Source: Aestuariirhabdus litorea
GTDB lineage: Bacteria; Pseudomonadota; Gammaproteobacteria; Pseudomonadales; Aestuariirhabdaceae
Direction: 5' to 3'
NCBI RefSeq assembly: GCF_003864255.1
Contig: NZ_QWEZ01000001.1
Span: forward strand, 620,001 to 684,000
DNA: 64,000 bases
In this document: positions 12,317 to 13,278 of the stretch, piece by piece
Layout: every line of letters starts with the position of its first letter
Position numbering within the stretch: position 1 is the first letter of the stretch
Notes under the pieces: model-generated
The model's input: only the letters and a program-made list of their open reading frames with translations
Database searches by the model: none
Told to the model about the DNA's origin: nothing
Made by a program: the position numbers and the translations under genes

Positions 12317-12540
12317 GGTGTTCTTCTCCCTCTTGGGTAGTGGACTGCTTGGGGGTAAATTCCGTTGGGTTTTATCACTCAAACGGTTCGGAATGGGTGC
12401 ACAGCTGCAATAACCCATTAATGTACTCAGAAATATAGCCGCTGGATCACCCTTTTGCCGTAATGGAAGCCGGGCAGCAAGAGGGGTACTATCGGCAACG
12501 GGTTGATGGGGGTTAAAAGGGGGCGTAAACGTTGGCGGAT

Positions 12541-12945
12541 ATGACTATGGAGATAACCTGGACAGGGGACGCCCGCGCGCGTCTGGATCGTATCCCGGAA
12601 GGGCCCATGCGGGCGATGGTGCACAGGGTGATCGAGACGCTGGCCGGGGAGGCTCGCCTCAGTGTCGTCACTCTGGAGTACGTGGAGCAGGTACTGGCCA
12701 TTTTTCAGCAGGGGGCCTCTGTGGTGGAGGAGCGGCTGCCCTGGGACGACAGTGCCCGCGAGGGGATCGCTCGAGCCCCGCAGATGATTCGCGGTATGCT
12801 GGTTCGGGAGATTGAGCAGCTGGCCCGGGAACGGGGGCAGGAGCGGGTGGATGAGACGGTGGTGAAGCAAGCGAAGGCGCGTTGGCAGCAGGGGGACGCT
12901 TTCCACCTTGATCCGGCTGATCCCCGTTCAAACAGCCAGTGTTGA
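12541..12945 (+). CDS. Tandem PCP-reductase-like small protein
   Basis: A 134-residue soluble protein. The second half (W68 onward: WDDSAREGIARAPQMIRGML, then EIEQLARERGQERVDETVV) resembles the small C-terminal domain of light-independent protochlorophyllide reductase (PCP_red). The first half (W7 onward: WTGDARARLDRIPEGPMRAM, then VIETLA and VTLEYVEQVL) follows the same pattern 61 residues earlier, so the protein looks like two copies of one motif. There is no photosynthesis gene nearby. Function unknown. ATG 12541 is preferred over TTG 12532. Confidence 0.7.
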   Translation: MTMEITWTGDARARLDRIPEGPMRAMVHRVIETLAGEARLSVVTLEYVEQVLAIFQQGASVVEERLPWDDSAREGIARAPQMIRGMLVREIEQLARERGQERVDETVVKQAKARWQQGDAFHLDPADPRSNSQC

Positions 12946-13056
12946 GCCTGGGGCTGGGCACCTGAGACCAATGGCGAGTGGAGTCGGGTAAGTCTTCCCC
13001 CTATAGTTACCCGTCAGGGTGTGAAAGCCACCGACAGGGGCATTGATGGAGGCGTT

Positions 13057-13278
13057 ATGGAGAGCTGCCGGGAGTATTTTTGCTGTCGCCGCACCAACTG
13101 TGTGATGTACCAGCGTGAGGATGGCGTCAATTGCTGGGAGATGGAGGGTACCCTCTGCAACAGTCCTGCGTTGCAGCAGATTGAAGAGGATACCCACAAG
13201 GACAAAGAGGCCAAGTGCGACTATTGCATCTACTATCGCCAGGCGCAAAAGGAGCTGGCCCTCAAGGGCAAACTTTAG
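13057..13278 (+). CDS. Two-CW-type cysteine-rich small protein
   Basis: A 73-residue protein with eight cysteines (4, 9, 10, 15, 26, 34, 54, 57). It includes the signature CRRTNCVMYQ, then NCWEMEGTLC, then CDYCIYY, which I recognise as a two-CW-type module. Such modules occur alone or at the ends of chemoreceptors and sensor proteins. Metal binding is likely but unproven. ATG 13057 has a GGAGG four bases upstream and is preferred to GTG 13021. Its TAG overlaps the stop of the convergent transporter gene by 3 bases (TTAG). Confidence 0.8.
   Translation: MESCREYFCCRRTNCVMYQREDGVNCWEMEGTLCNSPALQQIEEDTHKDKEAKCDYCIYYRQAQKELALKGKL

Follow-up and report, generated by a model that had tools for sequence, protein, structure and literature searches.

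The 64,000-nt stretch of Aestuariirhabdus litorea DNA analysed here (hereafter the window; contig NZ_QWEZ01000001.1, positions 620,001 to 684,000) encodes a 137-aa protein made of two PCP_red domains in tandem. The gene lies with a small Cys-rich gene in a two-gene islet, and the features of this region are as follows.

12532..12945, + strand: tandem PCP_red gene, 137 aa, TTG start at 12532, stop codon included (open reading frame and Pfam)
12559..12690, + strand: first PCP_red domain, 39.9 bits alone in the genome search; counterpart of P4 in five-domain USP-PCP_red proteins
12742..12876, + strand: second PCP_red domain, 42.3 bits alone in the genome search; counterpart of P5, the last domain of USP-PCP_red proteins
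12883..12942, + strand: C-terminal tail, W118-x5-FH(125)LDPxDPR (alignments and model)
12419..13274, + strand: two-gene islet, the tandem PCP_red gene plus the Cys-rich gene (comparison with a congeneric genome)
13057..13278, + strand: Cys-rich small protein, 73 aa (open reading frame; weak two_CW_domain match, 16.1 bits against a cut-off of 35)

Alternative starts of the tandem gene are the ATG codons at 12541 and 12550. Pfam PF08369 (PCP_red) matches the 137-aa protein in two stretches (75.2 bits, E 4.2e-21; curated cut-off 32.5 bits), a match far above chance that agrees with the initial annotation, which had described the protein as two PCP-reductase-like motifs. That annotation had assigned only the second motif (residues 68-118) to the domain. 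The assignment holds, and the first motif (residues 7-58) belongs with it, as each half exceeds the cut-off by itself. In a control for the genome search, the profile matched one of 14 control genomes, that of a cyanobacterium. The protein contains a single Cys, which is its last residue, and no Cys-Pro.

NCBIfam models match the window protein at the C-terminal end of BchB models only and far below their cut-offs. TIGR01278 scores 37.7 bits against a cut-off of 490, and its best stretch covers positions 457-510 only. Members of BchB/ChlB are full-length nitrogenase-like subunits that pass this 490-bit cut-off, and the window protein is not among them. We identified seven PCP_red matches in the genome, of which the window holds two, a 682-aa frame four and a 450-aa frame the remaining one. 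None of the seven lies in a BchB-like frame, consistent with the earlier remark that no photosynthetic gene of this kind is present. The PCP_red domain of BchB/ChlB in dark-operative protochlorophyllide reductase (2KRU, 2XDQ_B, 2YNM_D) has the same profile and fold as the window protein, but the latter has no nitrogenase-like part, carries two domains in tandem and comes from a genome in which no BchB was found. We rejected a BchB fragment on the first and last of these grounds. Asr4154 of Nostoc sp. PCC7120 (2L09) is a free-standing PCP_red protein like that of the window; it differs in having one domain of 62 residues and in its cyanobacterial origin. The domain and its single free-standing forms were known already, and the tandem form is new.

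The AlphaFold2 model of the window protein (mean pLDDT 84.1) shows two three-helix units, with helices at residues 12-19, 25-40 and 48-63 in unit 1 and at 73-80, 84-100 and 108-119 in unit 2; pLDDT is low in the tail from about residue 121. Both halves have the three-helix fold of the solved PCP_red domains: unit 1 aligns to 2L09 (Z 7.9 over 62 residues) and unit 2 to 2KRU (Z 8.0 over 58 residues), and the best Foldseek match of the model is also 2L09. Z values of about 8 are frequent among helical bundles, according to the aligner's own warning, and the PCP_red claim therefore rests on the sequence match. When a profile of 45 terminal pairs of USP-PCP_red proteins (described below) was compared with the PDB, Asr4154 (2L09) was the best match (E 1.4e-6), and the ChlB/BchB PCP_red domains 2XDQ, 2YNM and 2KRU were also matched; E values for the BchB/ChlB domains range from 2e-6 to 1.8e-5. 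Helical lids of AAA+ proteins come close to the PCP_red units in fold as well (RuvB 191-251, Z 7.8, rmsd 1.7; MCM lids), and AAA lid families give weak Pfam hits on the window protein.

The 682-aa and 450-aa PCP_red frames lie together at 1.77 Mb on contig 1 (locus L008), more than 1 Mb from the window gene, in a cluster with the following gene order.

L008, first in the cluster: CxxCH protein, 177 aa
L008:2036-3883: CydA-like bd subunit I (PF01654, 65.2 bits)
L008, after the CydA-like gene: 245-aa protein, secreted-looking
L008:5350-7365: USP-PCP_red protein, 672 aa, with two USP and four PCP_red domains
L008, after the USP-PCP_red gene: radical SAM/SPASM protein with a terminal PCP_red domain, 416 aa
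L008:8627-10042: protoporphyrinogen-oxidase family protein (PpoX; TIGR00562)

With 215.2 bits in TIGR00562 against a cut-off of 97.85, the cluster PpoX is predicted to belong to the HemY/PpoX family. The best curated matches of the radical SAM-PCP_red protein are the heme enzymes NirJ2 (322.7 bits, cut-off 500) and AhbD (296.7 bits, cut-off 500), and NirJ scores 171.2 bits (cut-off 515). Because the NirJ2 and AhbD scores fall below 500, the protein is a relative rather than a proven member of these families. AhbD and NirJ are described as acting on heme propionate side chains (PMC7242693). The radical SAM protein is not an ordinary NirJ, as a separate NirJ above the cut-off occurs in 26 of 41 genomes; the source genome offers no better NirJ match than the cluster enzyme, which scores far below the cut-off. 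Nor is the cluster PpoX the sole protoporphyrinogen oxidase in the 29 of 41 genomes, the source genome among them, that have HemJ. From these two counts, both enzymes seem to be additional to ordinary heme and heme d1 synthesis in most of the genomes, which fits a special purpose without proving one.

A survey of the gene neighbourhoods of homologues, of the kind proposed in the initial annotation, revealed that the USP-PCP_red cluster is conserved. Scanning genome contigs with the USP-PCP_red alignment gave at least 588 pattern matches, of which at least 546 were confirmed. For cluster statistics we retained the best 80 of these at least 546 relatives, a best-scoring sample that leans to close relatives of the query. 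A set of 84 proteins comprises the 80 plus four of eight further stretches, picked for a whole USP-PCP_red gene. Hosts among the best 80 are mostly Gammaproteobacteria (Sedimenticola, Thiodiazotropha, Lamellibrachia/Escarpia symbionts, Beggiatoa-like), with Gallionella-like Betaproteobacteria, Rhodospirillaceae-like Alphaproteobacteria and one Acidobacteriota MAG. Across the 84 loci, the number of PCP_red domains varies from 1 to 5 in the USP-PCP_red protein and from 1 to 3 in the radical SAM protein.

Neighbours were counted only at those of the best 80 loci that have enough flank. The radical SAM-PCP_red gene lies downstream of USP-PCP_red in at least 68 of 73 loci, a lower bound because at two of the five loci that fail the rule (L093 and L095) the radical SAM gene overlaps the USP gene. 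PpoX is found downstream in 52 of 58 loci, the bd-like subunit upstream in 37 of 45, and a CxxCH frame nearby in 42 of 45, the last being a count without a background rate. The radical SAM motif CxxxCxxC is conserved in 74 of 76 proteins and the USP nucleotide motif G2xG9xG[ST] in 83 of the 84 USP-PCP_red proteins. Other recurrent neighbours are a cytochrome c/EB_dh membrane protein, a second cytochrome c, a HEAT-repeat protein and a two-component pair. At 8 of the 84 loci (L040:10855-12633, L085, L090, L095, L103, L108, L111 and L118; Pfam matches from L090) a protein with lactonase-type propeller, nos_propeller and cupredoxin features lies near the cluster. We take it to resemble a lactonase-type nitrous oxide reductase, a name under which no paper was found in the literature searched.

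The cluster seems undescribed in the literature searched, which covers part of the field only. A CydA-like bd subunit I stands beside the cluster together with c-type cytochromes at L041:1017-2837, L008:2036-3883 and other loci. In these components the cluster resembles the enigmatic bd-like cytochrome oxidase system of nitrite oxidisers and anammox bacteria (PMC3578206). The two differ in that NXR genes were not noticed among the recurrent neighbours of the cluster.

The linkers between the PCP_red domains carry a distinct signature. In the linkers and tails of the 84 USP-PCP_red proteins, which are related and so do not amount to 84 independent events, 102 of 104 Cys residues are followed by Pro, and in 67 of these 102 cases the next residue is Phe. 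By shuffling, 8.6 Cys-Pro would be expected (maximum 17 in 200 shuffles). Elsewhere Cys-Pro is scarce: Pro follows 7 of 316 Cys within the USP region, 0 of 92 within the PCP_red domains and 110 of 2968 within the other frames of the loci. Cys-Pro at any position is present in 78 of the 84 proteins. The surrounding linker is highly variable; among 28 aligned proteins, the linker C, P and F are 96%, 96% and 89% conserved, with the other columns of 579-617 at 64% or less. In one USP-PCP_red model, the Cys-Pro linker (581-613) has pLDDT below 50 and lies between PCP_red beads. Cys-Pro is the classical heme regulatory motif and serves as an axial heme ligand in bacterial regulators such as Irr (Cys-Pro-Trp-His; PMC11442138); heme transfer from Cys-Pro to a nearby His is described for peptides (PMC10377097). 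The Cys-Pro in a flexible segment that characterizes heme regulatory motif proteins is absent from the window protein.

On sequence grounds, the window protein is a homologue of the terminal pair plus tail (P4-P5) of USP-PCP_red proteins. Over its full length it is 35-46% identical to the terminal pair and tail in 30 such proteins, and it keeps all 13 residues that are invariant in that alignment. Across 45 aligned pairs from both tail classes, eight residues are invariant, including W118 and H125 of the tail; the invariant types are P, G, R, W, A, L and E, with His in the tail only. Compared with 37 proteins of class U5HLDP, half 1 scores best with P4 (mean BLOSUM 71.1; other positions at most 59.8) and half 2 with P5 (117.6; other positions at most 64.4), and half 1 is also best with the next-to-last domain of four-domain proteins, the P4 equivalent. 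The window protein thus shares the last two domains and the W-x-FH tail with the USP-PCP_red family (L008:5350-7365, L068 and others), but lacks P1-P3, the Cys-Pro linkers and the two USP domains, Pfam finding no Usp match in the 137-aa frame.

A tree of 72 pairs, taken from proteins with at least four PCP_red domains, places the window protein in the 'FHLDP' tail class and the cluster copy of the same genome in the 'FHS' class, with support of 100/100 for the split. On this basis we reject a recent duplication of the resident cluster gene as the origin of the window protein. Its branch is long (1.67), and the tree does not settle its nearest kin.

A free-standing pair is rare. The samples searched, which overlap one another and the phylum sample so that some genomes are counted under two labels, comprised 293 genomes of the order, 369 of the class and 44 picked genomes (40 from cluster loci and four from the phylum sample). 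Everywhere except in the window and in genome G439, the full pair lies within frames of 647-816 aa; in G439 the array is cut by an in-frame stop between P3 and P4. Ten of the 44 picked genomes gave no full pair at E 1e-10, and no further clear stand-alone pair was found in the order, class or picked samples. The free-standing tandem, which the initial annotation took to suggest a general function, is better described as a rare loose copy of the widespread USP-PCP_red terminal pair. PCP_red does live outside photosynthesis, as that suggestion implied, but the tandem itself is not widespread. At L078:4426-4428 a USP-PCP_red gene is interrupted by an in-frame stop between P3 and P4, and its terminal pair forms a frame of its own; this may show how a free-standing pair can arise, or it may be a sequencing error.

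The islet is defined by comparison with the congeneric genome G001, in which the DLH and YdcZ genes that border the islet in the window are adjacent, both islet genes are missing together and PCP_red has no match at all; a second congeneric genome gave no DLH match. Third-position GC of the tandem gene (0.75) is like that of its neighbours (0.72-0.76), indicating that by composition it is not a fresh arrival. The Cys-rich gene is present in two of the 369 genomes of the class sample, the source genome counted. The other genome holds all four homologues (32-39% identity) and also has the USP-PCP_red cluster, not adjoining them; no PCP_red gene was seen beside the four. A tie to the upstream cobalamin gene CbiB and the aminotransferase gene (CobD-like by place) was rejected because G001 has these without the tandem gene. 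Five window neighbour genes were sought in the fetched cluster loci and none was found. Phage or plasmid cargo was also discarded, as searches of phages, plasmids, PHROGs and PADLOC gave no match; 29 viral stretches matched the pattern and none was confirmed.

We tentatively favour the view that the window protein is a freed terminal pair, which as a soluble adaptor or carrier would dock on the partner of the terminal pair, and that PCP_red joins proteins and a tetrapyrrole. The domain would be a small three-helix module bringing the two together, carried on tetrapyrrole enzymes as the tail of BchB and, by similarity, of AhbD/NirJ2-like radical SAM proteins, and the USP protein would hold PCP_red beads along linkers with heme-regulatory-like Cys-Pro motifs. 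The window protein would act in trans, on whichever partner the scaffold's terminal pair binds, and His125, invariant in the tail, is a candidate ligand. We regard PCP_red as a tetrapyrrole module because it occurs on BchB, on a radical SAM protein beside PpoX and on a Cys-Pro USP scaffold. The protein or cofactor binding suggested in the initial annotation may apply, and the Cys-Pro linkers, together with cluster neighbours of the radical SAM, protoporphyrinogen-oxidase and cytochrome types, point to tetrapyrroles. Several observations count against this: the window protein has no Cys-Pro, PCP_red also occurs on DUF169 and Rieske/VanA_C proteins, for which we could show no link to tetrapyrroles, and as single-domain proteins, the radical SAM scores are below 500 bits, and the window gene is far from the cluster, in an islet and on a long branch. 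Also, the passages of the DPOR literature that were consulted assign no role to PCP_red in BchB. A broader proposal, in which PCP_red is a general tetrapyrrole module older than or parallel to chlorophyll use, seems rather unlikely; under it, the USP scaffold with heme-binding Cys-Pro linkers, the PCP_red-tailed radical SAM enzyme and the PpoX homologue would make or load a special heme for the bd-like complex in hundreds of non-phototrophic bacteria, and the window protein would be a freed terminal module acting in trans. Alternatively, PCP_red may serve in docking or oligomerization only, the USP protein gathering partners for the bd-like complex and the window pair being an extra docking piece, with no tetrapyrrole involved. 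We consider this somewhat unlikely, and pure docking nearly as likely as a tetrapyrrole module: His and Cys are never invariant inside the PCP_red domains (the invariant His being in the tail), the fold is near the AAA+ lid of RuvB, and the domain is found on the unrelated DUF169 and Rieske proteins and is common to two proteins of one cluster. Docking alone, however, leaves unexplained the near-exclusive linker Cys-Pro and the steady presence of the protoporphyrinogen-oxidase family gene.

It is improbable, though the rarity and placement of the gene speak for it, that the window gene has no present role, whether as an evolutionary leftover or as a passenger carried by a mobile islet. It is the sole clear stand-alone pair in the sampled genomes, is missing with its neighbour from the congeneric genome, lies far from the cluster and encodes a long-branched protein, but its frame is intact with all 13 invariant residues retained, and its third-position GC is that of its neighbours. 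Very doubtful is a heme sensor, in which USP-PCP_red, with its ATP-binding USP part and Cys-Pro motifs, would tune the cluster to heme supply and the free pair would be a decoy competing with the terminal pair. The conserved USP nucleotide motif agrees with it, as does the disorder of the Cys-Pro linker in one model, which resembles transient heme regulators in this respect (PMC11442138 and PMC10377097), and the window pair belongs to another tail class than its own cluster copy; no DNA-binding or signalling output was seen in the USP-PCP_red protein, however, and the competition would be pure conjecture. The significance lies in the exposed system rather than in the orphan protein, possibly a mere leftover. 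Although PCP_red is listed as a component of chlorophyll synthesis, here up to five copies are arrayed on stress-protein-like scaffolds, next to heme-type enzymes; the window protein led to this conserved cluster, with its at least 546 confirmed relatives, in non-photosynthetic bacteria. If the cluster makes or delivers a tetrapyrrole, PCP_red would gain a function and the bd-like complex would be partly explained.

PCP_red occurs in further settings. In a sample of 398 genomes of the phylum, 37 have the domain, most with two long frames; most of these look like phototrophs with BchB and BchZ, an identity assumed from the frames. Two loci with weak or BchZ-like matches (L044, L045) had no match to a purpose-built PCP_red profile. 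A DUF169 protein with a C-terminal PCP_red domain (L129:700-1737 by Pfam; L130:1408-2433, similar by eye) is an architecture outside the chlorophyll enzymes. The domain also forms the C terminus of a Rieske/VanA_C oxygenase-like protein (L148:1489-2949, minus strand). A stand-alone single PCP_red protein of 58 aa is encoded at L042:5927-6103 (minus strand), where the adjoining frame appears NifX-like by eye.
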